From Pseudidiomarina aestuarii (GTDB lineage Bacteria; Pseudomonadota; Gammaproteobacteria; Enterobacterales; Alteromonadaceae), in the NCBI RefSeq assembly GCF_003987355.1, contig NZ_PIPR01000001.1:372001-436000 (forward strand): 64,000 nucleotides of DNA, given 5' to 3'. The notes beneath the pieces were generated by a model. That model worked only from the letters and a program-made list of their open reading frames with translations, did no database searches and was not told the origin of the DNA. Numbering within the stretch: position 1 is the first letter of the stretch; each line of letters begins with the position of its first letter. The position numbers and the translations under genes are program-made. Below are positions 21,877 to 33,089 of the stretch, one piece after another.

Positions 21877-22548
21877 CTAGCGGAAGAATAGACTGCTGAA
21901 TGGATTCAACAAGCGACTGATACCCGCTGTAAAATGCATTGGAGCATCAAGCGTTGCCAACGTTAAGCAATCTTCGCCTTGTGTTTGCGGAGTATGCTTG
22001 TGGTGTTCGTCTAACAAGATAAAGTCACCGTCGCGATACTCGTTGAATTCGTCATTGAACACACCGTTGATGACTAGCGTTGCTTCACGACCCTTGTGCG
22101 TGTGCTCTGGAACTTGTGCACCATCCGCCATGTAGATTAAGTTCAACATTTCGCCGTTACCAATATCGACTGGCGCACGCCACAACTTGCTCACCATGTG
22201 GTGCCATTGACCAATGCGATGCTCGTTACGCGCTAACGTCGCTGGTAGCGCAAACCGCTTACCTTCTAAAGAGATGTAATCGCGTGCTGCCTCTGCTCGG
22301 ACTTGGATCGGAGCAGGTGAGTTCATAATTGACTCTAGCATGGAGTCAACCACCGTATTCGGCAACGCAGCGTCAGTAACTCGTTCACCGAGCACTTTCA
22401 GCGCGATTTGTTCTTCAATGTCAGCAACGTGCTGCTGGCACTGTGGACACATATCAACGTGCGTACCAATCATTACAAGCATGGCAGGGTTCAATTCACC
22501 TGTAGCATACTGCACCAATAATTGTTCGTGAGGATGTGATTTAATCAT
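21877..22548 (-). CDS. chrR: ChrR-type zinc/cupin anti-sigma factor
   Basis: Anti-sigma of 223 residues. The N-terminal zinc-binding domain has the His-x3-Cys-x2-Cys motif (H30, C34, C37, with His5/7), which in Rhodobacter sphaeroides ChrR holds the ECF sigma factor inactive. The C-terminal cupin has EHTHKGREATLV (H149, H151, E155) and a later His cluster (EHHKH, 182-185), the metal site needed for the singlet-oxygen response in that species. It overlaps the sigma gene by 8 bp, so the two are translationally coupled. Confidence 0.9.
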   Translation of the reverse strand: MIKSHPHEQLLVQYATGELNPAMLVMIGTHVDMCPQCQQHVADIEEQIALKVLGERVTDAALPNTVVDSMLESIMNSPAPIQVRAEAARDYISLEGKRFALPATLARNEHRIGQWHHMVSKLWRAPVDIGNGEMLNLIYMADGAQVPEHTHKGREATLVINGVFNDEFNEYRDGDFILLDEHHKHTPQTQGEDCLTLATLDAPMHFTAGISRLLNPFSSLFFR

Positions 22549-23161
22549 CAGTCTTAATCAACTCTTTCAGTTTTTGAAGCGCAAGCCGAGTACGAGACTT
22601 CACTGTACCCAACGGGATTTCGAGTGCGTCAGCGACTTCTTGCTGCGACTTGCCCTCGATATAAATGAGTTCAACCACCTCTTTTTGGGCGATTGGGAGA
22701 CTTTCGCAATATACAGCTAACTGCTGCAAGAGCAGGTCATCGTCTAATGCGTAGTCGTCATCTAGCGATTCGTTTGTTTCTGCTAATACCGGCCATAAAT
22801 CGTCAGCGCTCAAATCATATTGCCGGTGTTTATTCTTGCGTAAGAAATCAAAACGAATGTTTCGTGCAATAGTAAAAATCCAGGTCGCAGCGGAACCGCG
22901 ATCTGGTTTGAATAAGTGTGCCTTGTGCCATACATTCGTCATTGTTTCTTGAACCAGGTCCATGGCCGTTTGTTCATTACCGAACTGACGGGTAGCATAG
23001 GCCTGGAGCTTTGGGGCAAAATGTTTGAACAATTCCGCAAAAGCTTGACGACTTCTGGATGCTGCAATGCGAGAGAGAAGCTCAGCAGCGTATTCAGCAC
23101 TATCTGGCTGCGCAGAGGACATAGGTTTCCGTTTTGTGGGTGATTCAATCACTGACTGCAT
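22541..23161 (-). CDS. rpoE: ECF sigma factor, RpoE/ECF11 type
   Basis: ECF sigma factor of 206 residues (193 if the internal ATG at 23122 is used). Region 2 spans FAELFKHFAPKLQAYATRQFG to AWIF-like TWIFTIARNIRFDFLRKNK, and region 4 is ESLPIAQKEVVELIYIEGKSQQEVADALEIPLGTVKSRTRLALQKLKEL. Pairing with a ChrR anti-sigma places it with ECF11 sigmas that respond to singlet oxygen or other photooxidative stress. A promoter-like site at 23197-23226 matches what such sigmas recognise, implying autoregulation. Here rpoE names the ChrR-partner family, not the E. coli envelope-stress sigma E. Confidence 0.88.
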   Translation of the reverse strand: MQSVIESPTKRKPMSSAQPDSAEYAAELLSRIAASRSRQAFAELFKHFAPKLQAYATRQFGNEQTAMDLVQETMTNVWHKAHLFKPDRGSAATWIFTIARNIRFDFLRKNKHRQYDLSADDLWPVLAETNESLDDDYALDDDLLLQQLAVYCESLPIAQKEVVELIYIEGKSQQEVADALEIPLGTVKSRTRLALQKLKELIKTDD

Positions 23162-23196: not shown

Positions 23197-23226
23197 CTAT
23201 TACGCCTTCTTGTCTAACTTTGATCA
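23197..23226 (-). promoter_or_regulatory. Candidate ECF11 promoter before rpoE
   Basis: On the minus strand, TGATCA is followed after 18 nt by TAATAG, with GCG just before the -10. R. sphaeroides sigma E promoters read approximately TGATCC-N18/19-TAAGA. It lies 36 nt before the rpoE ATG. Confidence 0.6.
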
Positions 23227-23245
23227 CTATAGCTTAAAAAAATGT

Positions 23246-23845
23246 TTATTGGTCACTTTCTTGAACTAATTGGCGTAAAAAACTCAATGCTTCCGAACAA
23301 TCATTCTGTTGTAAAAGTTCTTGTTTGGTACTGGCACAGATTGGCAACAACTCCAACCAACGCATACAAATCCAATCCGCTTGCTGCATCTGTTGGGGAC
23401 ATTTACTCCCCTCAAGTTCAGGATAACTCTCGTATACTTTCGCGAGCTGCTCTGCGAGTAGTGCGTCTTCATGGGTCAATGGCATCGTCGGCCACAAGGC
23501 TTGAGCTTCGACGGTACCGATACGCAATCCATCCGCGGCCGTTGTTACTTCACTCAATTTAAAGCATTGCTCGCCTTCAACGGTGATGCCAAGAAGACCG
23601 TCAGGGAGCGTTTCGAAGTCAATGACGCGAGCCAATGTTCCGATTGGATGAATGTGCGTATTTTGCTCTACACTTCCGGCGTCGTTAAACATACACATTC
23701 CGATGTATCCGGAAGGCTGAGTTGAACAAGCTTCTTTGACCATCCGCAAATAGCGACTTTCAAAGATTCGCAGACGCAACCGCCCGCCCGGCAGCACATG
23801 CGCAGATAATGGAAACAGTGGAACCTGCATGGGTTCGTGACTCAT
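23246..23845 (-). CDS. LON substrate-binding-domain protein
   Basis: Product of about 199 residues from the ATG at 23845 (MSHEPMQVPLFPLSAHVLPGGRLRLRIFESRYLRMV), with upstream AGAGGCG as ribosome binding site; a longer frame from 23899 is possible. It carries only the N-terminal LON fold (PLFPL...LPGG, RIFE.RY) and lacks the AAA+ and protease domains of Lon, so it is a stand-alone PUA-like binding domain of unknown ligand. It is upstream of rpoE-chrR on the same strand and has its own sigma-like promoter shared divergently with the photolyase operon. Confidence 0.85.
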   Translation of the reverse strand: MSHEPMQVPLFPLSAHVLPGGRLRLRIFESRYLRMVKEACSTQPSGYIGMCMFNDAGSVEQNTHIHPIGTLARVIDFETLPDGLLGITVEGEQCFKLSEVTTAADGLRIGTVEAQALWPTMPLTHEDALLAEQLAKVYESYPELEGSKCPQQMQQADWICMRWLELLPICASTKQELLQQNDCSEALSFLRQLVQESDQ

Positions 23846-23921
23846 AGATGACGCCTCTACTCGTACTGCGTTACAGCTACTCATACAGCAGCTGTTCAAA
23901 CGAATTGATTACTTACTGTCC

Positions 23922-23951
23922 AACTTACGCGGATTTAATGACTTTGGTTCA
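23922..23951 (-). promoter_or_regulatory. Candidate ECF11 promoter before the LON gene
   Basis: On the minus strand, TGAACC, 18 nt, TAAGTT, with GCG directly before the -10. It lies 77 nt before the chosen start. It is back to back with the promoter at 23961-23989; the two -35 elements are 9 bp apart. Confidence 0.6.
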
Positions 23952-23960
23952 ATGAAAAGC

Positions 23961-23989
23961 TGAACTTTTCGGGTATTTTTGCGTAAGCT
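23961..23989 (+). promoter_or_regulatory. Candidate ECF11 promoter of the photolyase operon
   Basis: TGAACT, 17 nt, TAAGCT, with GCG directly before the -10, the same layout as the two minus-strand sites. It lies about 82 nt before the first gene of the operon at 24071. Confidence 0.58.
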
Positions 23990-24070
23990 AAAACGGCTTG
24001 GGATGTGCGGTATGGTTACCTGTCTATATTTGTTGAAGTCGAAAGTCACGATCAGTTGGCAAGGAATGTT

Positions 24071-25009
24071 ATGGCTGCGATTAAAGTTGGAATCAGTGCG
24101 TGTTTGCTCGGTGATTTAGTTCGTTACGACGGCGGTCACAAAAAGTCAGCATTTTGCGCGGACGAATTGAGCCGACATGTCGAATTTATCAAGCTTTGTC
24201 CTGAGGTGGGTATCGGACTTCCAATTCCTCGACCCACCATTCGTTTGGAACAGCATGGCGAGGATATCCGTGCCATCATCCCCAAAACCGGAGCTGATGT
24301 GACTGAAGCGCTGCGTGATTTTGCTGACCGCGCGCAATCTCACTTACGCCAAATCAGTGGTTATGTGCTGTGCGCGAAATCACCGAGTTGTGGCATGGAA
24401 CGGGTGAAATTGTATAACCCTGAGACGGGGCATGCCCGCAAAGAAGGCGAAGGGATTTTTGTTCGCCGGTTGCGGGAATTACACCCAGCAATACCAATTG
24501 AGGAGGATGGCAGACTCAATGACTCCCATTTGCGTGAAAACTTTGTATTACGTGTTTTTGTATATGCGGCATGGCAAAACATTAAAACACAACTTGATAA
24601 AGCAACTTTGGTAAATTTCCACACCGATTTAAAGCTGCTGCTGTTAGCTCATGATCAAGCGTTATATCGCGCACTTGGACGTTTTGTTGCCGATTGCCAA
24701 ACTATCACAGAAGACATCGCAGAAGCGTACATTAGGCAAGTGATGACGGCGCTGAGTAAACCGGCGTCACGTGCCAACCACACCAATGTGTTGCAACATA
24801 TCCAAGGCTATTTTAAATCCCAATTGTCGGCCGCACAAAAACAGGAATTAAGTGACTTGATCTTGGCATACCGACAGGGTGAACAACCGTTGTTAGCTCC
24901 ACTGACGCTGATCCGTCATTATCTGCGTGAGTATCCGAACACCTATTTGGCAAGACAGCGATATATTGACCCGTATCCCAACGACTTAAAACTAAGGTAT
25001 GCACTCTAA
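24071..25009 (+). CDS. DUF523/DUF1722 two-domain protein
   Basis: Product of 312 residues from the ATG at 24071, with ribosome binding site AAGGAA; an earlier in-frame start at 24005 overlaps the promoter leader. The N-terminal DUF523 part (GISACLLGDLVRYDGGHK, then CPEVGIGLPIPRP and SPSCGMERV) has conserved cysteines at SACLLG, LCPEVG and SPSCG. The C-terminal DUF1722 part (about 190-312) holds LVNFHTDLKLLLLAHD and a YxEYPNTYLARQRY-like end. This combination commonly precedes photolyase genes; no biochemical function is known to me. Its stop codon overlaps the phrB start (TAATG). Confidence 0.85.
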   Translation: MAAIKVGISACLLGDLVRYDGGHKKSAFCADELSRHVEFIKLCPEVGIGLPIPRPTIRLEQHGEDIRAIIPKTGADVTEALRDFADRAQSHLRQISGYVLCAKSPSCGMERVKLYNPETGHARKEGEGIFVRRLRELHPAIPIEEDGRLNDSHLRENFVLRVFVYAAWQNIKTQLDKATLVNFHTDLKLLLLAHDQALYRALGRFVADCQTITEDIAEAYIRQVMTALSKPASRANHTNVLQHIQGYFKSQLSAAQKQELSDLILAYRQGEQPLLAPLTLIRHYLREYPNTYLARQRYIDPYPNDLKLRYAL

Positions 25010-26424
25010 TGAACACAGGTATTTGGTTTCGAGGTGATTTACGGCGGTTGGACAATCCGGCTGTTACTGCTGCACTTGAAAGTTCGCGAGCACACGATTC
25101 TGAAGCTGTAGTGCATGCTTTGTATATCGCGTGTCCGAAACAATGGGAATTGCATGATTGGGCTCCCATCAAGATTGATTTGTTGTGGCGTCACCTTGAG
25201 CAATTTCGGCAGGAATTGGCTGAATTTGGAATTTTACTTGATATTGAAATAGCGGATGACTGGCGAGCCGCACCGAAGACGGTTTTGCAATTCTGCCAAC
25301 GTCATCAACTCAGTCAAGTGCACGCCAATGCTGAATACCCAGTGCATGAACAACGACGAGATAGAGCTGTTGGCAAATGGCTCACTGACAATGAATGTAG
25401 TCTGCAATTACATCACGGCCTATTACTTGTGCCACCGGTAGTGAAAACCCAGCAAGGGAACGTTTATCAAAAGTTCACACCATTCAATCGTGCTTGGCGC
25501 GAACATCTGGCGCTTACCGGCATCGCGCCTCTGAAAAGTTGGAATCGGATTACGCAGCCGTTGCAGTTAGAACCGATGCCCACCTGTCCTGGACCACGTC
25601 GAGATTCTTCCACATGGGTTGTCGGGGAGGAAAATTGCCGACGAGCTTTGCAACGATATATCGAGGAACATGTCCAAGACTATGATGCTGAGCGTGATTT
25701 CCCAGCACTAGATACCACCTCTCGGTTATCACCGTATTGGGAATTAGGTTGTCTGGGACCCGTGACGGCAGCGCGTGCGCTCCAAAAACTGAGTCCAGAG
25801 TTTCCATATGGTTTGGAACAGGGTGCCGATACTTGGCTCACTGAACTGGCGTGGCGTGAGTTCTACCAACACTTGATGTGTCATATTCCACGGCTGAGTT
25901 ATGGCAAAGCATTTCAACAACATACCGATGCCTTTCCGTGGCGAGACGCAAAAGATGATTTTCAGCGCTGGTGTGACGGACAAACAGGGTTTCCGATTGT
26001 GGATGCTGGTATGCGCCAACTGAAACACGAGGGGTGGATGCATAATCGAGTGCGTATGATTGTTGCTAATTTTTTGGTGAAAGACCTGCGTATTGATTGG
26101 CGCAAGGGCGAACGATACTTTATGCAGAACCTAATAGATGGCAGTTTCCCCGCCAACAACGGGGGGTGGCAGTGGAGCGCCTCAACAGGTACCGACGCAG
26201 TCCCTTATTTTCGCGTGTTTAATCCCACTCGCCAGAGCGAAAAGGTTGATCCTGATGGATCCTACATTCGTAAATGGATTCCAGAACTGAGGGATTGTCC
26301 AACCAAGCAGATTCATGCACCCATGCTATGGTTACAAGCAAGCGGAAACAGTGATTACCCCGCACCCATGGTCGACCATAGTGAGGCTAGAGAAGCATTT
26401 TTGAGTGCATTCAAGGCACTCTGA
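25009..26424 (+). CDS. phrB: Deoxyribodipyrimidine photolyase
   Basis: Light-driven repair of cyclobutane pyrimidine dimers, 471 residues, similar to E. coli PhrB (472). N-terminal alpha/beta antenna-binding domain (TGIWFRGDLRRLDNPA...) and C-terminal FAD domain with the diagnostic DERDFP-like DAERDFPALDTTSRLSPYWELG, ELAWREFYQHLM, GQTGFPIVDAGMRQL, WMHNRVRMIVANFLVKDL and WQWSASTGTDAVPYFRVFNP. Membership of the cryptochrome/photolyase class I group is clear. Translationally coupled to the upstream gene; part of the putative ECF regulon. Confidence 0.96.
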   Translation: MNTGIWFRGDLRRLDNPAVTAALESSRAHDSEAVVHALYIACPKQWELHDWAPIKIDLLWRHLEQFRQELAEFGILLDIEIADDWRAAPKTVLQFCQRHQLSQVHANAEYPVHEQRRDRAVGKWLTDNECSLQLHHGLLLVPPVVKTQQGNVYQKFTPFNRAWREHLALTGIAPLKSWNRITQPLQLEPMPTCPGPRRDSSTWVVGEENCRRALQRYIEEHVQDYDAERDFPALDTTSRLSPYWELGCLGPVTAARALQKLSPEFPYGLEQGADTWLTELAWREFYQHLMCHIPRLSYGKAFQQHTDAFPWRDAKDDFQRWCDGQTGFPIVDAGMRQLKHEGWMHNRVRMIVANFLVKDLRIDWRKGERYFMQNLIDGSFPANNGGWQWSASTGTDAVPYFRVFNPTRQSEKVDPDGSYIRKWIPELRDCPTKQIHAPMLWLQASGNSDYPAPMVDHSEAREAFLSAFKAL

Positions 26425-26464: not shown

Positions 26465-26917
26465 ATGAGTTCAAATAATAAAGACGCCGCACCTATCATC
26501 GAAAAGCTACGACAATTCTATGATGAATTTGCGGAAAGTAGTTTAGATAAGTTAGGTGACATTTATACAGAGGATGTCACTTTTATTGACCCCATTCATC
26601 AAACCAATGGCCTTGACGATCTCAAAGCGTATTTCAAGCATACCATGGCCGGTGTATCTCAATGTCATTTCGCCTTTGACGAGCAGCGCGGTGACAACGA
26701 AGTGCAGTTCTTAACATGGCAAATGCGGCTCATCCATCCGAAGTTAGCGAAAGGGCGAGAAATTGTGGTCCCTGGTGTTAGCGAATTACACATACGGGAT
26801 AATAAGATCCGCAAGCAACAAGATTATTACGACCTCGGAGCCATGCTCTACGAACATATCGCACTACTTGGCTTTGTGATCGACAAAGTGAAACAACGTT
26901 TAGTGCTGAAGGACTAG
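26465..26917 (+). CDS. NTF2/SnoaL-like protein
   Basis: Product of 150 residues with an NTF2-like cone fold pattern: LRQFYDEFAESSLDKLGDIYTEDVTFIDPIHQTNGLDDLKAYF, typical of SnoaL-type proteins. No signal peptide. Proteins of this group can be small enzymes or ligand-binding proteins. Ribosome binding site AAGGAGG precedes the ATG; only 8 bp separate it from the SDR gene. Its constant position in such photolyase/SDR/FAD/CFA operons suggests a role in the same pathway, but that is inference. Confidence 0.8.
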   Translation: MSSNNKDAAPIIEKLRQFYDEFAESSLDKLGDIYTEDVTFIDPIHQTNGLDDLKAYFKHTMAGVSQCHFAFDEQRGDNEVQFLTWQMRLIHPKLAKGREIVVPGVSELHIRDNKIRKQQDYYDLGAMLYEHIALLGFVIDKVKQRLVLKD

Positions 26918-26925
26918 GGGGCACT

Positions 26926-27642
26926 ATGAATATTTTAATCACTGGAGCGACCTCAGGTATCGGTAAGCAGGTTGCTTTGGATTATGCAGCCGCTGGGCAC
27001 CACGTGGTAGCCTGCGGGCGCAATCAAGAGTCCTTAGCCGCATTGGTTGCTCAATTCCCGAACAACATAGCTGGCCAACAGTTGGATGTGACTGATGTTG
27101 AAGCCACACAAAATGTATTGAAGACTTATTTAGACTTGGACGTCGTTATTTTATCGGCAGGTGTCTGTGAGTATGTCGACATTGAGACCTTCTCGACAGC
27201 TATGTTCGAGCGCGTATATGAGGTGAATATCTTCGGTACATTGCGCTGTGTCGAGGCACTGTTGCCAAATCTTCGGCGCGGTGCCAAGTTGGTGTTTGTG
27301 GGCAGTACAGCACGCTTGCTGCCATTCACCAGAGCGGAAGCTTACGGTAGTTCCAAAGCTGCGCTGCAATATATCGCACGCAGTCTGCAAGTTGATCTGG
27401 CAGATAGAGGCATCCGTGTGCAGACGGTGTCGCCTGGTTTTGTTGAAACACCCATGACCGACGCGAATGACTTCGAAATGCCAATGCGCGTAAGTGTGGA
27501 GTTTGCCTCGAAAGCGATTCGGCAGGGTATAAAAGCGAATCGAACAGATATTACCTTTCCGAGAGTGTTCGGTTGGTTTTTAAAAATACTTTCCAGATTG
27601 CCACAAAGCTGGCAAGTTGCAGTATCAAAACGGATTGCCTAA
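26926..27642 (+). CDS. Short-chain dehydrogenase/reductase
   Basis: Product of 238 residues with the SDR cofactor motif GATSGIGKQ near the start, VILSAG, catalytic Ser in FVGSTARLLP and the catalytic pair YGSSK. The C-terminal PGFVETPMT is standard. Cofactor NAD(P)H; substrate unknown, perhaps an acyl chain or oxidised lipid, judged only from its operon. Confidence 0.92.
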   Translation: MNILITGATSGIGKQVALDYAAAGHHVVACGRNQESLAALVAQFPNNIAGQQLDVTDVEATQNVLKTYLDLDVVILSAGVCEYVDIETFSTAMFERVYEVNIFGTLRCVEALLPNLRRGAKLVFVGSTARLLPFTRAEAYGSSKAALQYIARSLQVDLADRGIRVQTVSPGFVETPMTDANDFEMPMRVSVEFASKAIRQGIKANRTDITFPRVFGWFLKILSRLPQSWQVAVSKRIA

Positions 27643-27657: not shown

Positions 27658-28983
27658 ATGAAGATAGCAATTATTGGTTCGGGAATAGCCGGATTAACGA
27701 GCGCGTGGTTACTACACCGCAAGCATGATGTCACTGTCTTTGAAAAAAATGACTACATTGGTGGACACACTCATACCATCGATTTAGAAAAAGATGGTCA
27801 GGCCTACGCCGTCGACACTGGTTTTATTGTCTTTAACGATAGAACCTATCCGTATTTTCGAGCTTTGATGCGGGAAATTGGGGTAGATTGGCGTGATACC
27901 GAAATGAGTTTCAGTGTTCGCGATCCACTCAGTGGTCTTGAATATAACGGACATAATCTGAATACACTATTTGCCCAGCGCAGTAACTTGTTTAAACCTT
28001 CTTTTTATCGTCTGTTGTCAGGTATCGTCCAGTTCAACAAAGCGGCAAAATCAGCGTATGAGAAAGGTGGTGATGCGTTAGATACAGTGACGTTGGGTGA
28101 ATTCATTGCTGAGCAGAATTTGTCGCAAGACGTTTCAGACTATTATTTGTTGCCTATGGTCGCGGCGATTTGGTCGGCCAGTTTACAGGAAGCCGAGCAG
28201 TTCCCGTTAGGGTTCTTCCTGCGCTTTTTCAATAATCATGGGTTATTGAATATCTCGGACCGACCACAGTGGGCAACGATAGTCGGTGGTTCCAGTGCTT
28301 ATATTCCAAAGTTAACCGCCGGGTTCGCTGACCAGATTCGTTTGAACAGTAAAATCTCACGCGTCCAGCGGCGCGAGCAAGAACAGGACTCGGTTTTGAT
28401 CGAGTTTGTCGATCGTCAACCCGAAAGCTTTGATGCGGTTATTTTTGCTTGCCACAGTGATGAGGCCTTAGATTTACTGGCAGACCCTGATGCAGCTGAG
28501 CGTGATGTCCTCACCAATATCCCATATCAGATGAACGATGTTGTGTTACATACGGATACTCGCTTGTTACCGCGAGCGCAGCGAGCTTGGGCGAGTTGGA
28601 ACTATTTGCTCCATCATGGCGAGCAGGCGCGGACACGGCCAAGTTCAGTCACGTATAATATGAATATTTTGCAGGGGGTAGAGTCACCGCACACATTTTG
28701 TGTGACGTTGAATAATACCGCGGCTATTCAACCCGATAAAATTATTGGTCAATACGCCTATTCACACCCGGTTTACAGTGTCGCTTCGATGGCAGCTCGC
28801 CAACGTCGTCACGAAATCAATGGTCATCGCCAAACCTATTTTACCGGTGCGTACTGGTATAACGGGTTCCATGAAGATGGTGTTCGCAGTGCAGTGGACG
28901 TCGCTCGTATGCTGGGTTCTGATTGGCGCACTGATTTAGATACCAGTGCAGGTTTGGAACCAAAGTCTGGAACCACAACCTGA
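27658..28983 (+). CDS. FAD-dependent oxidoreductase, amine-oxidase/desaturase-like
   Basis: Flavoprotein of 441 residues with the N-terminal dinucleotide-binding motif IAIIGSGIAGLTSAWLL and the second FAD contact GGHTHTID. Further features are ACHSDEALDLLADP and a C-terminal FTGAYWYNGFHEDGVRSAVDVARMLG. It belongs to the amine-oxidase-like superfamily that also holds carotenoid and fatty-acid desaturases. Homologues accompany cfa-like genes in ChrR/sigma E regulons; by analogy with R. sphaeroides UfaD, unsaturated-acyl oxidation is plausible but not shown. Stop codon overlaps the next start (TGATG). Confidence 0.88.
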   Translation: MKIAIIGSGIAGLTSAWLLHRKHDVTVFEKNDYIGGHTHTIDLEKDGQAYAVDTGFIVFNDRTYPYFRALMREIGVDWRDTEMSFSVRDPLSGLEYNGHNLNTLFAQRSNLFKPSFYRLLSGIVQFNKAAKSAYEKGGDALDTVTLGEFIAEQNLSQDVSDYYLLPMVAAIWSASLQEAEQFPLGFFLRFFNNHGLLNISDRPQWATIVGGSSAYIPKLTAGFADQIRLNSKISRVQRREQEQDSVLIEFVDRQPESFDAVIFACHSDEALDLLADPDAAERDVLTNIPYQMNDVVLHTDTRLLPRAQRAWASWNYLLHHGEQARTRPSSVTYNMNILQGVESPHTFCVTLNNTAAIQPDKIIGQYAYSHPVYSVASMAARQRRHEINGHRQTYFTGAYWYNGFHEDGVRSAVDVARMLGSDWRTDLDTSAGLEPKSGTTT

Positions 28984-29735
28984 TGCTCAGTAGCGCCTTA
29001 CAGAAAGGTCAGGTATTTCACCGTCGTTACCGACCGACGGAACACCAATTCCATTATTCGACGACGCAATGGTGGCTGGCTCTCGATGAGTTAGACACCT
29101 TGCATCAATGTAGCCATTTGCTGTCAACAAGACGGTTTGCGCCTTTGTGGTTCCGGCGGGCTGATTATTTACGTGGCTCGGTAGGAGACTTGGCTACTTG
29201 TGTCCGCCAAAAGCTGACTGAGCTGACTGGAAATAAAGTGACAGGGCGGGTATTTTTCCTCGGTAACTTAAGAACTTGGGGATTATATTTCAGTCCTATT
29301 AACTGCTATTTCGTCGAGGATGAAGCAGGTCATTACAGCTATATGCTTGCCGAAGTCAGTAATACCCCGTGGAATGAGCGGCATTATTATGCAATTGATA
29401 TGGCTGATGCGGCGACCGAAACGACGCGTGCGGAGCATCCAAAAGCATTTCATGTGTCGCCGTTTAATCCGTTAGAAATGAGCTATCAATGGCGTATCAA
29501 GCCACCGTTGAATCACGTTGAAGCACGTTCCCTGATTCAATTGGATGCGGTGCGCGAGACGAAACATTTTCGTGCCAGTTTGGCACTACAACGAGTCGAA
29601 TTGAACCCAAGAGCAATTCGTTCCGTATTTCTTAGATATCCGATCAACACAGTAACGACTGTGGCGGCGATTTATTGGCAAGCGTTAAAGCTATTCCTCA
29701 AACGCACACCAATATACGACCACCCAGCGAGTTAA
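28983..29735 (+). CDS. DUF1365 family protein
   Basis: Product of 250 residues, N-terminal MLSSALQKGQVFHRRYRPTEHQFHY..., typical of DUF1365 (G.V.H.R..P..H.F.Y), with LGNLRTWGLYFSPINCYFV and the KAFHVSPFNPLEMSYQWR segment conserved in the family. No membrane segment is evident except a hydrophobic stretch near 222-238. Function unknown; DUF1365 genes nearly always neighbour cfa-like and FAD oxidoreductase genes, as here. Coupled to the previous gene by overlap. Confidence 0.9.
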   Translation: MLSSALQKGQVFHRRYRPTEHQFHYSTTQWWLALDELDTLHQCSHLLSTRRFAPLWFRRADYLRGSVGDLATCVRQKLTELTGNKVTGRVFFLGNLRTWGLYFSPINCYFVEDEAGHYSYMLAEVSNTPWNERHYYAIDMADAATETTRAEHPKAFHVSPFNPLEMSYQWRIKPPLNHVEARSLIQLDAVRETKHFRASLALQRVELNPRAIRSVFLRYPINTVTTVAAIYWQALKLFLKRTPIYDHPAS

Positions 29736-29750
29736 TACACAGGAAGCGTT

Positions 29751-30989
29751 ATGTACAAGGGTGAAACTGTGCTTGCAGAGCAACAACAAGAATCAAGCTT
29801 CGACCGGATGGCTCGAAAACTCGTCTTAAATTTACTGAGTCGTATTCGGCATGGCCGATTCGTCATCAAAGAGCAGGGGACACTATTGGGTGATTTTGGC
29901 GATGCAACGAGTTCGCTCGTAGCGGAAGTCAATGTACTTCATTTCTCGTTCTACCGTCGGATGTTGCTGAAAGGGAGTATTGGCGCGGCTGAACTATTTA
30001 TTGACCAAGCCTGGGAAACCCCCGATTTGACCGCGGTGATTCAGGTGTTCGCGCGCAATCTTCGCGCACTGGATGAGCTCGAAGCTAAATTCAGTTGGTT
30101 GCTATTGCCGTTCCAGAAATTCCAGCATTGGCGTCGCAGTAATAGTAAGCAACAAGCCAAAGAAAACATCTCAGCGCACTATGACCTGGGCAATGATTTG
30201 TATCAGGCGTTTCTCGACCCAAGGCTGCAGTATTCTAGTGCAGTTTATCCAAGTGCTCAGTCGACACTGGCCGAGGCGCAAGAACACAAGCTCAAACGGT
30301 TGTGTGATTCGCTAGAACTTACTGCGGCTGACCATTTGATTGAAATCGGCACTGGCTGGGGCGGCTTGGCTGTTTTTGCAGCCAAGAATTATGGCTGTCG
30401 GGTGACCACGACGACCATTTCAACCGAACAGCATGACTACGTCCGCGATTTGTTGGTGCAAGAAGGTTTGACTGAGCAAGTCACCCTACTGAAGCAAGAT
30501 TATCGTGATTTGACGGGAACCTACGATAAGTTGGTCTCCGTTGAAATGATTGAAGCGGTGGGGCGTTCTTACATGCCGACATTCTTCAAGACCTGTAGTC
30601 GGTTGTTGAAGCCTGAGGGCAAGATGGCGTTGCAGGCGATTACCATCGCTGACCAGCGAATGAAATCTTACGCAAACTCGGTCGATTTTATTCAGAAATA
30701 TATTTTCCCGGGCGGCTTTTTGCCATCCATCACGATGATGTCAGAAATGTTCACCAAGCACACTGATATGGTCATGCGTCATATTGACGATATTGGCTTT
30801 GATTACGCGCGCACCTTAAAAGACTGGCGCGTTCAATTTAATGCCAAGCATCCAGAATTAAAAGCTTCGGGTTATGATGACCGCTTCGGTCGTTTATGGA
30901 ACTACTATTTAGCGTATTGCGAAGGTGGTTTTCGTGAACGTGCTGTGTCTGCGGTGCAACTGGTGGCCACCAAGCCTATGTGTCGCTAA
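29751..30989 (+). CDS. cfa: Cyclopropane-fatty-acid-synthase-family methyltransferase
   Basis: SAM-dependent methyltransferase of 412 residues acting on unsaturated acyl chains of membrane phospholipid. SAM-binding motif I is EIGTGWGG (198-205); VSVEMIEAVG and the C-terminal YLAYCEGGFRE, with the Cys conserved in Cfa enzymes, are present. The N-terminal 130 residues form the lipid-binding domain (AELFIDQAWETPDLTAVIQVFARN). In the ChrR regulon of R. sphaeroides the homologue (CfaA, later UfaM) makes a methylated acyl intermediate of furan fatty acids; whether this one makes cyclopropane or methyl-branched products cannot be read from sequence. Start ATG 29751 follows GGAAG. Confidence 0.9.
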   Translation: MYKGETVLAEQQQESSFDRMARKLVLNLLSRIRHGRFVIKEQGTLLGDFGDATSSLVAEVNVLHFSFYRRMLLKGSIGAAELFIDQAWETPDLTAVIQVFARNLRALDELEAKFSWLLLPFQKFQHWRRSNSKQQAKENISAHYDLGNDLYQAFLDPRLQYSSAVYPSAQSTLAEAQEHKLKRLCDSLELTAADHLIEIGTGWGGLAVFAAKNYGCRVTTTTISTEQHDYVRDLLVQEGLTEQVTLLKQDYRDLTGTYDKLVSVEMIEAVGRSYMPTFFKTCSRLLKPEGKMALQAITIADQRMKSYANSVDFIQKYIFPGGFLPSITMMSEMFTKHTDMVMRHIDDIGFDYARTLKDWRVQFNAKHPELKASGYDDRFGRLWNYYLAYCEGGFRERAVSAVQLVATKPMCR

Positions 30990-30991
30990 CT

Positions 30992-31561
30992 ATGTCGATT
31001 GCCAGCAAAGCTCAACTGAAAAAAACGTTTTCTTGGCAGAATATGCGCCGCATAGCTGGGCTGTTTCTGTTTGATGCAGTTTGGTTTGCTGCGGTGATTG
31101 GACGAGGTGACTGGTTACTCGTTACAGCTTTGCTGGTCGTCGCTCAGATTGGCTTAGCTTGGAAAGGCGGAGCGTTAATAGGGAAGCGTTCATTTTATCT
31201 TTACACGCTGCTACTCCTGCTTGGCTTAGGCCTCGAAGGTACCGTTATTCTCTCAGGCATTATCAGCTTCACCGAGGGCCCCTTTCCATGGTGGCTAGTA
31301 CTTCTTTGGTTTGGTTTTGTTGCCATGCTGATGAACACACTGGATTGGCTAGCAGGTCGCTACTGGTTGGCCAGTTTCTTTGGAATCGCCTCGGGACCTC
31401 TAACCTATGCCATAGGGATACGATTAGATGCCGCTACCTTGCACGGTCCTGAGTGGCAACTTTGGGCCCTTTATGGGGTCTTATGGTGCATCTATATGCT
31501 GATCTTTGCGTATGTCATGAAGCTTCAAGGAGAGTCCCATGAAGAGACAAAAACGGCTTAG
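30992..31561 (+). CDS. DUF2878 membrane protein
   Basis: Product of 189 residues with about five to six hydrophobic segments (GLFLFDAVWFAAVIGRG, LLVTALLVVAQIGLAW, LYTLLLLLGLGLEGTVIL, WWLVLLWFGFVAMLMNTL, LWALYGVLWCIYMLIFAYV). The pattern fits DUF2878. The ATG at 30992 is two bases after the cfa stop; a GTG at 30980 inside cfa is an alternative. It overlaps the next gene by 23 bp. Unknown inner-membrane partner of the lipid-modification genes. Confidence 0.82.
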   Translation: MSIASKAQLKKTFSWQNMRRIAGLFLFDAVWFAAVIGRGDWLLVTALLVVAQIGLAWKGGALIGKRSFYLYTLLLLLGLGLEGTVILSGIISFTEGPFPWWLVLLWFGFVAMLMNTLDWLAGRYWLASFFGIASGPLTYAIGIRLDAATLHGPEWQLWALYGVLWCIYMLIFAYVMKLQGESHEETKTA

Positions 31562-32075
31562 TTGGTTTGTTGCTGCAAGTGTTATTGGTTTGAGTTCAGT
31601 AACGTTTTCTGCTCAAGGTGCCTGCGTCAACGACCAGTTTGAAAGTTTAGAAGTGGTTGGCGAAACCCGGCTGTCGGTATTGTTTTGGGATGTATACGAT
31701 GCTCAATTACGCACCGATAGCGGGAATTATGATAGTTATGACCAGCGCGCCCTTCGCTTGACTTACCTGCGTGAAATTAAAGCGACAGAACTTGTTGAGA
31801 GCACTCAGGAAGAGTGGGAACGATTGGGAATCGAGATTACTGAGAATCATCAGACTTGGCTGCAAGAACTGAATCAAATGTGGCCTGACGTGAAAAAAGG
31901 CACCTGTTTGATGATGATTGAGGACGCTGATGGATTCGCTCAATTTCATTCGGCAGATGGGCAATTAGGAACCATCCAGTCGGCTACGTTCACAGATGAC
32001 TTTTTAGCCATTTGGCTCGATGAAAATTCTCGCTTCAAAGACGAGCGGAATGAATTAATAGGAGCAGGATCATGA
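31539..32075 (+). CDS. Secreted chalcone-isomerase-like protein
   Basis: Product of 178 residues with a signal peptide ending near SAQGA. The mature part (FESLEVVGETRLSVLFWDVYDAQLRTDSG, ALRLTYLREIKATELVESTQEEWERLGI) fits the chalcone isomerase-like fold, whose eukaryotic FAP members bind fatty acids. Bacterial members have no demonstrated chalcone isomerase activity. A periplasmic lipid-binding role is consistent with the operon. Start overlaps DUF2878; the end overlaps the next gene by 4 bp. Confidence 0.85.
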   Translation: MKRQKRLSWFVAASVIGLSSVTFSAQGACVNDQFESLEVVGETRLSVLFWDVYDAQLRTDSGNYDSYDQRALRLTYLREIKATELVESTQEEWERLGIEITENHQTWLQELNQMWPDVKKGTCLMMIEDADGFAQFHSADGQLGTIQSATFTDDFLAIWLDENSRFKDERNELIGAGS

Positions 32076-32596
32076 CAAAGAAATTTAGCATTATCGCGGC
32101 ATTTATTTTGGTACTAGCAGCCTGTTCTTCGAGTATTGAAGATTATCGTGGTGAAACTCCAGAATTGAAACTTGAAGAGTTTTTTAATGGTGAGTTAGTA
32201 GCTTATGGTGTTGTCCAAGATTACAGCGGAGAAGTCATTCAACGGTTTCGAGTGGAGATGGTTGGCACCTGGGAAGGTAACGAAGGCGTGCTCGATGAAC
32301 AGTTTTATTATGCTGATGGACGCGAGCAAGAACGTATTTGGTATCTCACGAAGACTGGGCCAAATGAATACGAAGGTCGCGCTAGTGACGTAGAGGGCGT
32401 GGCCAAGGGTAAAACCGTTGGCAATGTGTTGACCTGGGAATATGTTTTAGTCATTGAAATGGACGGTGAACCGTTTTCAGTCACGCTCGATGATTGGATG
32501 TATCTGGTCGACGCAGACAATATGATCAACCGCACTAAAATGTACAAATACGGCTTACCAGTGGGTGAACTGACGCTCTATATCGGTAAACGTTAA
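32072..32596 (+). CDS. DUF3833 lipoprotein
   Basis: Product of 174 residues beginning MTKKFSIIAAFILVLAACSS, with lipobox LAAC. The mature part (LKLEEFFNGELVAYGVVQDYSGEVIQRFRVEMVGTW) fits DUF3833, a beta-rich lipoprotein family that is frequently encoded beside chalcone-isomerase-like and cfa genes. ATGA overlap with the previous gene. It is the last gene of the operon and is followed by a terminator. Confidence 0.88.
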   Translation: MTKKFSIIAAFILVLAACSSSIEDYRGETPELKLEEFFNGELVAYGVVQDYSGEVIQRFRVEMVGTWEGNEGVLDEQFYYADGREQERIWYLTKTGPNEYEGRASDVEGVAKGKTVGNVLTWEYVLVIEMDGEPFSVTLDDWMYLVDADNMINRTKMYKYGLPVGELTLYIGKR

Positions 32597-32614: not shown

Positions 32615-32645
32615 AAAAAAGCCCCAATTCAATGGGGCTTTGTTC
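32615..32645. terminator. Bidirectional terminator after the photolyase operon
   Basis: AAGCCCC (32619-32625) pairs with GGGGCTT (32634-32640), flanked by an A6 run on the left and TTGTT on the right. It serves the operon and, on the other strand, the convergent histone-H1-like gene. Confidence 0.85.
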
Positions 32646-32666: not shown

Positions 32667-33089
32667 TTAGTTATCATAGCCACGCGGTAGACGCGACAAT
32701 GTAGCGTCTTCTTCGAGTTTCTTCTTCCACAACTCTTTGGCTGTTAAACCACCCGAATTAGCAGAAGCCGATTTTTTCGCGGCGGCTTTTTTAGCTGGAG
32801 CAGCCTTTTTAGCTGGTGCCTTTGCAGCGGCCGCTTTCTTCGCAGGAGCAGCTTTGGCAGCAGGTTTTGCGGCTTCTTTTGCAGGCTTCTTAGCCGCTGT
32901 TTTAGTCGCTTTTTTAGCGCCACCCTTCAGCTCGTCCACTTGCTCAGCCAATTGCGCTAGGCGCATGTTTTTGCCACCATCCACGCTATACCAACCACCA
33001 CTTGCTTCAATTTTCGGTTGTTTACCGTGGGCTTGCTGATAAGCTTCAGTAAAATCAGCAAGAACTTTGTCTTTATCAAGTTTGCTCAT
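32667..33089 (-). CDS. Histone-H1-like Lys/Ala-rich protein
   Basis: Product of 140 residues. Residues 1-54 form a small folded part (FTEAYQQAHGKQP.IEASGGWYSVDGGKN). Residues 55-110 are almost only Ala, Lys and Pro, with KKAAPAKK-type repeats as in bacterial H1-like proteins such as AlgP or HU tails. The end (LTAKELWKKKLEEDATLSRLPRGYDN) is a second conserved patch. It probably binds DNA or RNA through the basic tail. Ribosome binding site AGGATAT lies close before the ATG. Confidence 0.75.
   Translation of the reverse strand: MSKLDKDKVLADFTEAYQQAHGKQPKIEASGGWYSVDGGKNMRLAQLAEQVDELKGGAKKATKTAAKKPAKEAAKPAAKAAPAKKAAAAKAPAKKAAPAKKAAAKKSASANSGGLTAKELWKKKLEEDATLSRLPRGYDN

Follow-up and report, generated by a model that had tools for sequence, protein, structure and literature searches.

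An ECF11 sigma factor locus in Pseudidiomarina aestuarii with candidate promoter sites before its genes and within its divergent operon

From which promoters does a ChrR-bound ECF sigma factor read the genes around it, and does its regulon end there? The question is raised by a stretch of 64,000 nucleotides of the Pseudidiomarina aestuarii genome (hereafter, the window), in which rpoE, chrR and a gene for a stand-alone LON substrate-binding-domain protein face a divergent operon of ten genes (Table 1). A first-pass annotation had placed ECF-type motifs before rpoE, the LON gene and the photolyase operon, and had proposed that the sigma factor drives all three as a self-contained photooxidative regulon. 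The reading that we consider highly probable is that of an ECF11 locus with three intergenic and two embedded sigma sites, and with additional targets elsewhere in the genome.

Table 1. Features of the sigma factor locus and candidate sites elsewhere. Positions are those of the window, except where preceded by C1.
Feature	Position	Strand	Basis or remark
ChrR-family zinc anti-sigma factor gene	21877..22548	-	TIGR02451, PF12973
ECF sigma factor gene (rpoE / ECF11)	22541..23161	-	family and structure searches
Promoter-like site of ECF sigma gene	23200..23227	-	GTGATCAAAGTTAGACAAGAAGGCGTAA; GTGATCA-N16-CGTAA; rpoE start codon 23161
Stand-alone LON substrate-binding-domain protein gene	23246..23845	-	PF02190
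Promoter-like site of LON-domain gene	23925..23952	-	TTGAACCAAAGTCATTAAATCCGCGTAA; TTGAACC-N16-CGTAA
Promoter-like site of DUF523/DUF1722-photolyase operon	23960..23986	+	CTGAACTTTTCGGGTATTTTTGCGTAA; CTGAACT-N15-CGTAA
DUF523 + DUF1722 (YbgA-like) gene	24071..25009	+	family search
Deoxyribodipyrimidine photolyase gene	25009..26424	+	family search
Embedded site within photolyase gene, upstream of SnoaL gene	26246..26273	+	TTGATCC-N16-CGTAA; top matrix match of window
SnoaL/NTF2-like gene	26465..26917	+	family search
Short-chain dehydrogenase gene	26926..27642	+	family search
FAD amine-oxidase-fold gene (UfaD-like)	27658..28983	+	named by order and family after PMC7380195
DUF1365 gene (UfaO-like)	28983..29735	+	PF07103; named after PMC7380195
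Embedded site within DUF1365 (UfaO-like) gene	29601..29628	+	TTGAACC-N16-CGTAT; ~120 bp before CMAS (UfaM-like) gene
CMAS-family methyltransferase gene (Cfa/UfaM-like), cyclopropane-synthase family	29751..30989	+	family search
DUF2878 gene	30980..31561	+	family search
Chalcone-isomerase-like gene	31539..32075	+	family search
DUF3833 gene, last of operon	32072..32596	+	family search
Terminator-like hairpin after last gene	32618..32641	+	consensus match only
DPRP photolyase-related gene	C1:13593-15182
DUF1499 gene	C1:444041-444760
ECF11-like candidate site	C1:188579-188605	-	33-45 bp before gene (all three candidate sites)
ECF11-like candidate site	C1:193134-193160	+
ECF11-like candidate site	C1:328476-328502	-

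The sigma factor, its partner and three intergenic sites

Among solved structures the sigma factor has its nearest match in R. sphaeroides sigma-E (PDB chain 2q1z_A, also 2z2s, with E 5.4e-31 against 3.1e-14 for the next), and the protein encoded by the adjoining gene, which matches TIGR02451 with 187.1 bits (cutoff 124.5) as well as PF12973, likewise finds its best counterpart in the R. sphaeroides sigma-E/ChrR chains (2Q1Z/2Z2S). Residues H5, H30, C34, C37, H149, H151, E155 and H185 of this ChrR align with the eight published zinc ligands (PMC6852236). Membership of ECF11, a label that we took over from the same review and not from an ECF classifier, is indicated by two of its marks, the closeness to R. 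sphaeroides sigma-E and the adjacent cupin-domain zinc ChrR. The spacing of the ten divergent genes suggests that they form one transcript. For the first of them, ATG at 24071 is a likelier start than GTG at 24005, because most relatives align from about there (residue 14-23 onward). The hairpin behind the last gene is a weak call, since a scan of the window returned 17 such sites and shuffled sequence a mean of 13.1. The UfaD-, UfaO- and UfaM-like genes lie together, and their Pfam families and order fit a furan-fatty-acid (Ufa) cassette, which is what these three genes look like, the naming being by family only; in R. sphaeroides UfaD is RSP1091, UfaO (DUF1365) RSP1090 and UfaM RSP2144 (PMC7380195). 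Just past the operon, an ORF of 140 amino acids (32667-33089, minus strand) matches a histone-H1-like HC2 model below the cut-off, and in one Pseudoalteromonas an HU gene comes next after the operon.

All three motifs of the first-pass annotation were found where it had put them. Set against the published motif, they are TGATC-N17-CGTAA (rpoE), TGAAC-N17-CGTAA (LON gene) and TGAAC-N16-CGTAA (operon head), with TGAWC-N16/17-CGTAA as their common form. The GCG described as standing before the -10 does recur at all three, but the -10 hexamers proposed with it begin two bases late; GCG belongs in part to the -10 itself, because the published gammaproteobacterial -10 is CGTATT or CGTAW. The motif is of the type TGATCC..CGTATT for Shewanella RpoE2 (PMC4336711) and TGATC-N16-18-CGTAW in V. 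cholerae (PMC5241685). The latter, ECF11 form is present here as conserved motifs, also before the sigma factor's own gene, and TGAAC replaces TGATC in two of the three sites. The -35 is gene-specific, being mostly TGATCC before rpoE in the relatives and TGAACTTTT before the operon in 14 of 22, where it is kept together with CGTA. In loci L009-L032 this operon-head -35 contains GAACTT, the -35 of envelope-stress sigma-E published upstream of Shewanella rpoE (PMC4336711), and cross-recognition is possible. That the envelope-stress sigma-E reads the operon head, instead of or beside the ChrR-bound sigma factor, nevertheless seems quite improbable to us: the -35 fits in part, but the -10 is CGTAA and not TCTACA or TCCAAA (PMC4336711), CGTA stands there in 18 of 22 relatives, and the same -10 is found in the LON site, nine bases away.

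How often would such motifs arise by chance? The bare pattern is common: in the window TGATC-N16/17-CGTA occurs twice (1.05 expected; reached by 24 of 100 shuffles) and TGAAC-N16/17-CGTA four times (0.88 expected; reached by 4 of 100). We trained a two-box matrix on 21 rpoE and 18 divergent sites from other genomes, leaving out this genome and all LON sites, so that the LON site of the window is an independent prediction. Over about 128,000 start positions the matrix ranked the LON site second (18.4), the operon site third (17.1) and the rpoE site fourth (14.5), while the first rank (19.3) fell to 26246 on the plus strand, within the photolyase gene. The best score per sequence in 100 random Markov sequences of the same length averaged 15.1 and reached 20.0, a value that no single score of the window exceeds. 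The joint ranking does exceed the random set, as the third-best score is 17.1 in the window and on average 12.8, at most 16.2, in the random sequences. The case for the intergenic sites is one of position and conservation, and single scores alone are not decisive.

The sigma factor is present in 24 of 26 genomes of the genus. TGAWC-N16/17-CGT precedes rpoE in 21 of the 22 relatives with upstream sequence (L025 has none and was left out; L014, which reads CGTT, is counted; L031, with TGATC-N18-CGTA, is missed) and occurs in the divergent direction in 18 of 22, always as CGTA. Toward the LON gene, the best sites of 23 loci, our own included, scored 7.7-18.4 with a mean of 11.8, against a mean of 2.2 and a highest single score of 11.7 in the reversed control; 20 of the 23 share the same spacing and the -10 is mostly CGTAA, while the -35 often departs from TGAWC.

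A wider comparison, with families assigned from the record titles, was limited to the best 80 of 586 relatives and overlaps the genus set, some genomes being in both. Within these 80, the LON gene is the immediate upstream neighbour of the sigma gene, on the same strand, in 17 of 18 Idiomarinaceae (the remaining locus has no upstream sequence), 32/32 Alteromonadaceae and 3/3 Vibrio; none of the 7 Thalassospira and 14 Rheinheimera/Arsukibacterium-group loci shows this arrangement. In 32/32 Alteromonadaceae and 7/7 Thalassospira the sigma factor is found together with divergent FAD-DUF1365-CMAS genes. Again among these best 80, the strict motif TGATC-N15-18-CGTA precedes rpoE in 12 of the 17 Idiomarinaceae with upstream sequence (three more in relaxed form), 16 of 32 Alteromonadaceae, 3/3 Vibrio, 7/7 Thalassospira and 3 of 6 others, and its reversed control had no match in the same loci. 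The 16 Alteromonadaceae loci that lack it count against our reading, as do all 14 of the Rheinheimera/Arsukibacterium group (one an unclassified MAG). In that group the ChrR-linked sigma factors (L292-L307 except L294 and L304) lack LON and lipid genes within 6 kb as well as the strict motif upstream, and possibly represent a distinct branch. In two Pseudoalteromonas megaplasmids the operon and LON-rpoE-chrR share a strand, the second stretch ending inside the cyclopropane-synthase-like gene.

The two genomes of the genus without the sigma factor, G008 and G009, also lack a stand-alone LON gene, their LON matches lying within long Lon proteases; they lack the DPRP gene (as does G015) and the DUF1499 gene (as do seven others), both discussed below. 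Each keeps a distant DUF523 gene without the site, and no photolyase was found within 12 kb around it. These shared absences may reflect one event, because the two genomes may be sisters.

Candidate promoters inside the photolyase and DUF1365 genes

The first rank of the matrix scan lies in the photolyase gene. A scan of the operons found the same site in 20 of 20 relatives, one of them weak and with CGTT. In the photolyases of 21 genomes, D414 (GAT) and R421 (CGT) are the only residues written with a single codon among 144 invariant residues with degenerate codons, and they fall in the -35 and -10 of TGATC-N17-CGTA, whose spacing is that of the rpoE and LON sites. When the set was enlarged to 30 sequences (our own, 20 of the genus and nine Idiomarina/Aliidiomarina loci), D414 was GAT and R421 was CGT in 30/30, whereas in the D and R columns that come closest GAT makes up 77% and CGT 43%. 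All nine motif bases are the same as in the window in 28 of 29 relatives, L336 having CGTT for CGTA.

The site embedded in the DUF1365 gene scores only 11.4, the twelfth place in the window, which counts against it. In a scan of the 250 bp upstream of the CMAS gene, 10 of 42 loci scored 11 or more, compared with 1 in the control, and in 8 of the 10 the match has the same position inside DUF1365, 140-158 bp upstream. Over 21 genomes N208 and V215 are the only single-codon positions among 69 invariant degenerate residues; they are AAC and GTA in 21/21 and fall in the -35 and -10 of TGAAC-N17-CGTA, again with the spacing of the rpoE and LON sites. The neighbouring bases are kept even where the residue varies: codon 207, for L, V or M, always has the form xTG, and codon 214, for S, N, R, G or H, always ends in C (21/21 of the genus for both). 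In a set of 63 full-length DUF1365 sequences (our own and 62 others; 14 of 76 loci, incomplete at the end of the stretch, were left out), those with the N..V pair have AAC, GTA and a C before GTA in 34/34, compared with a background in the same genes of 43%, 21% and 16%, respectively. Counted as distinct genes these 34 sequences are 33, of which 21 belong to the genus and 12 come from the 32 Alteromonadaceae; three of the 34 have TTA before AAC, which spoils the first -35 base, and 31 keep TGAAC. The remaining 29 of 63, including 20 of 32 Alteromonadaceae and 7/7 Thalassospira, do not have both N and V, and the site is absent; it is also absent in both Pseudoalteromonas clusters examined. These absences count against our reading. 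An embedded promoter may even shape the protein, as DUF1365 sequences with the codon pattern keep N..V and the other 29 do not have both.

Are these codons unusual in the cluster as a whole? In 13 genes of the cluster, with 19-24 sequences for each, a single codon fills 7 of the 1194 columns that hold an invariant degenerate residue, and four of the seven are the motif columns of the two embedded sites. The other three are N402 of the UfaD-like protein, which has no CGTA partner, codon 2 of ChrR, which lies in the overlap with the end of the sigma gene, and ChrR E155, which aligns with a zinc ligand. Judged by codon usage, protein conservation alone does not explain the invariance at the embedded sites, and both genes carry a sigma motif under constraint beyond that on the protein. 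Weak matrix matches also recur in the short-chain dehydrogenase, CMAS and DUF2878 genes of the relatives' operons, with no single-codon column there. One of them, GTAATCTATGC..GCCGTAT at about 465-486 into the DUF2878 gene of six relatives (L326, L328, L329, L330, L331 and L344), is not among the matches of the window's own operon.

Alternatively, only the three intergenic sites would be promoters, and the embedded matches would reflect codon preference, mRNA structure or translation needs at protein motifs. The photolyase match does sit in the conserved peptide DPDGxYIR and the DUF1365 motif in LNxxxIRxV, and the peptide forces the spacing. We compared 15 outgroup photolyases, picked for diversity from 141 records of a plasmid collection. 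The photolyase motif is kept in nine (six Pseudoalteromonas, Aeromonas, Photobacterium and one Vibrio), a neighbouring sigma/ChrR pair being confirmed in two of the six Pseudoalteromonas, and broken in six (Klebsiella, two E. coli, two Vibrio and a MerR-linked Salinivibrio). The persistence of the motif in the Aeromonas photolyase, which adjoins a MerR gene, suits the alternative and counts against a strict ECF11 link; its presence in those of Photobacterium and Vibrio also speaks against our reading. We nevertheless consider the alternative unlikely, since elsewhere in the two proteins conserved D, R, N and V residues are written with mixed codons, single-codon columns are rare and four of the seven fall in the motif, third bases are held where residues change, and six of the 15 outgroup photolyases break the motif. 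In Salinivibrio kushneri (megaplasmid, L350) the run from photolyase to DUF1365 has a MerR-family gene inside and no sigma/ChrR in 7.4 kb, a possible regulator swap on one gene set.

Taken as active promoters, as we infer for all five sites, the embedded sites would complete the picture of an operon that one sigma factor drives from three successive promoters, two of them held within the photolyase and UfaO-like genes by selection on synonymous codons. This we regard as likely. No description of such embedded sites was found among the open-licence papers listed in our search, judged by title or start of abstract, and an earlier mention is possible.

Regulon members elsewhere in the genome

The first-pass annotation had called the regulon self-contained and suggested a genome-wide motif search. 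In none of three patterns is the bare motif more frequent than its reversed control (4 vs 5, 23 vs 23 and 48 vs 57 matches in the whole genome), yet conserved sites do emerge outside the locus. We checked all 75 matches of the three patterns (27 + 48) for overlap with coding sequence and followed some leads. The DPRP gene was sought out because a photolyase-related target is listed for Shewanella: [C/T/G]GATC-N16/17-CGTA lies upstream of it in 22 of 23 genomes, and the site scores at least 7.5 in 21 of 23 (our own included in both counts; reversed control 0). For the DUF1499 gene the site is present in 15 of 17 genomes, one AGATCT form counted, and scores at least 7.5 in 15 of 17 (our own included; control 1). 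At least these two genes elsewhere would belong to the same regulon. DUF1499, a word absent from the papers listed in our search of the open-licence literature and from the RpoE2 rows compared in the Shewanella table, which list SO_4169 (PMC4336711), may be a new member of the light-stress response.

That promoters, sigma factor, anti-sigma factor and ten target genes fit within 12 kb gives the idea of a self-contained regulon its appeal, but the conserved sites before DPRP (~380 kb away) and DUF1499 (~48 kb away) contradict it, and we give it next to no credence. The targets assigned to the sigma factor by the first-pass annotation, namely its own gene, the LON gene and the operon, are probably right and also incomplete, considering the two sites inside operon genes.

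Other candidates were set aside or are presented with caution. The pattern GTGATCM-N16-CGTA has 99 matches in 26 genomes, compared with 23 for the reversed control; we discounted this count because the sigma-less G008 and G009 give 4 and 3 matches and several matches are in-frame coding triplets. GTGATCA-N16-CGTA occurs upstream of genes resembling fadE (acyl-CoA dehydrogenase), old yellow enzyme and YceI, names assigned by eye (the candidate sites on C1 of Table 1). The fadE block keeps its spacer as well in the eight loci compared, a comparison that is biased because seven of the eight were picked for matching the pattern. We rejected folE2, with a site 76 bp upstream, as an ECF11 target, because the block TGGCAAACTA(C/T)CGTA is also found in G008 and G009. 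Counted by eye, this block, followed by a TATACT-like box, precedes folE2 in 25 of the 26 genomes (C1 ~1325924-1326025; diverged in L167), and by its distribution it would be a regulatory element other than an ECF11 one.

Known systems and a proposed mechanism

By its sequence the system is the known ECF11 sigma-E/ChrR regulon, and the sites embedded in the photolyase and DUF1365 genes are its new elements. Since the regulon was already known, the regulon idea of the first-pass annotation is mostly a confirmation in a new genus. In Shewanella oneidensis, motifs for RpoE2-ChrR are predicted before rpoE2, a LON-domain gene, a ybgA-phrB-cfa operon and a photolyase-related gene, with starts mapped for rpoE2 and pgpD only; unlike here, that operon is far from rpoE2-chrR by locus number, pgpD/hemH2 are members, and the RpoE2 rows compared give no embedded promoter (PMC4336711). 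Vibrio cholerae shares the motif TGATC-N16-18-CGTAW and induces photolyase/cryptochrome genes via ChrR and sigma-E under blue light, but its targets are at many places, and the parts of the two reports available to us describe no embedded sites (PMC5241685, PMC11976125). With Rhodobacter sphaeroides sigma-E/ChrR, for which an earlier regulon prediction exists (Dufour et al. 2008, as cited in PMC6852236), the locus has in common the sigma/anti-sigma pair, the zinc ligands and, by family, UfaD-UfaO genes as probable targets; the RSP1087-1091 operon, however, is not described as holding a LON gene or photolyase, and UfaM is encoded elsewhere (PMC6852236, PMC7380195). The Pseudoalteromonas cluster (LON-rpoE-chrR-DUF523-phrB-...-DUF3833) has the same genes in the same order and keeps the photolyase motif, and differs in lying all on one strand and in the absence of the DUF1365-embedded site (2/2). 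A sigma promoter within a coding sequence that serves the next genes is known from the FliA promoter inside flhC of E. coli, which drives motAB-cheAW (PMC4183435). That sigma factor is of another class and its promoter lies in the gene before the operon, whereas here two sites would divide up an operon that has the same sigma factor at its head.

The mechanism that we propose is as follows. ChrR, as a two-zinc anti-sigma factor, would hold the sigma factor until singlet oxygen or a related oxidant inactivates it, a photooxidative signal that we infer from the homologues in R. sphaeroides and V. cholerae. The freed sigma factor would start transcription at TGAWC-N16/17-CGTAW sites, five of which lie in this cluster. 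It would fire its own gene and the LON-domain gene upstream, whose transcript could also run on into rpoE-chrR, as well as the divergent operon, whose genes serve DNA repair by light and probably the synthesis of furan/cyclopropane fatty acids. From the photolyase and UfaO-like genes the same sigma factor would restart transcription twice within the operon; with the start taken 7 nt after CGTA, these points lie ~185 bp upstream of the SnoaL gene and ~115 bp upstream of the CMAS gene. Stress operons of R. sphaeroides, RpoE-dependent ones included, often show 5' polarity after singlet oxygen (PMC3688512), and re-promotion would counter the distal genes being left behind; the distal lipid genes might then match the first genes in speed and strength of induction.

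If the embedded sites are active, they show that the binding of a sigma factor can fix codons within enzymes throughout a genus and farther afield, that promoters are overlooked when operon maps rely on intergenic motifs, and that the sigma factor at the head of a stress operon can also act from further promoters along it. Embedded sites of this kind can be found without RNA data by the codon test applied here. Finally, the LON-domain protein is missing from the genomes without the sigma factor and is, speculatively, a candidate for the step that hands ChrR to a protease.
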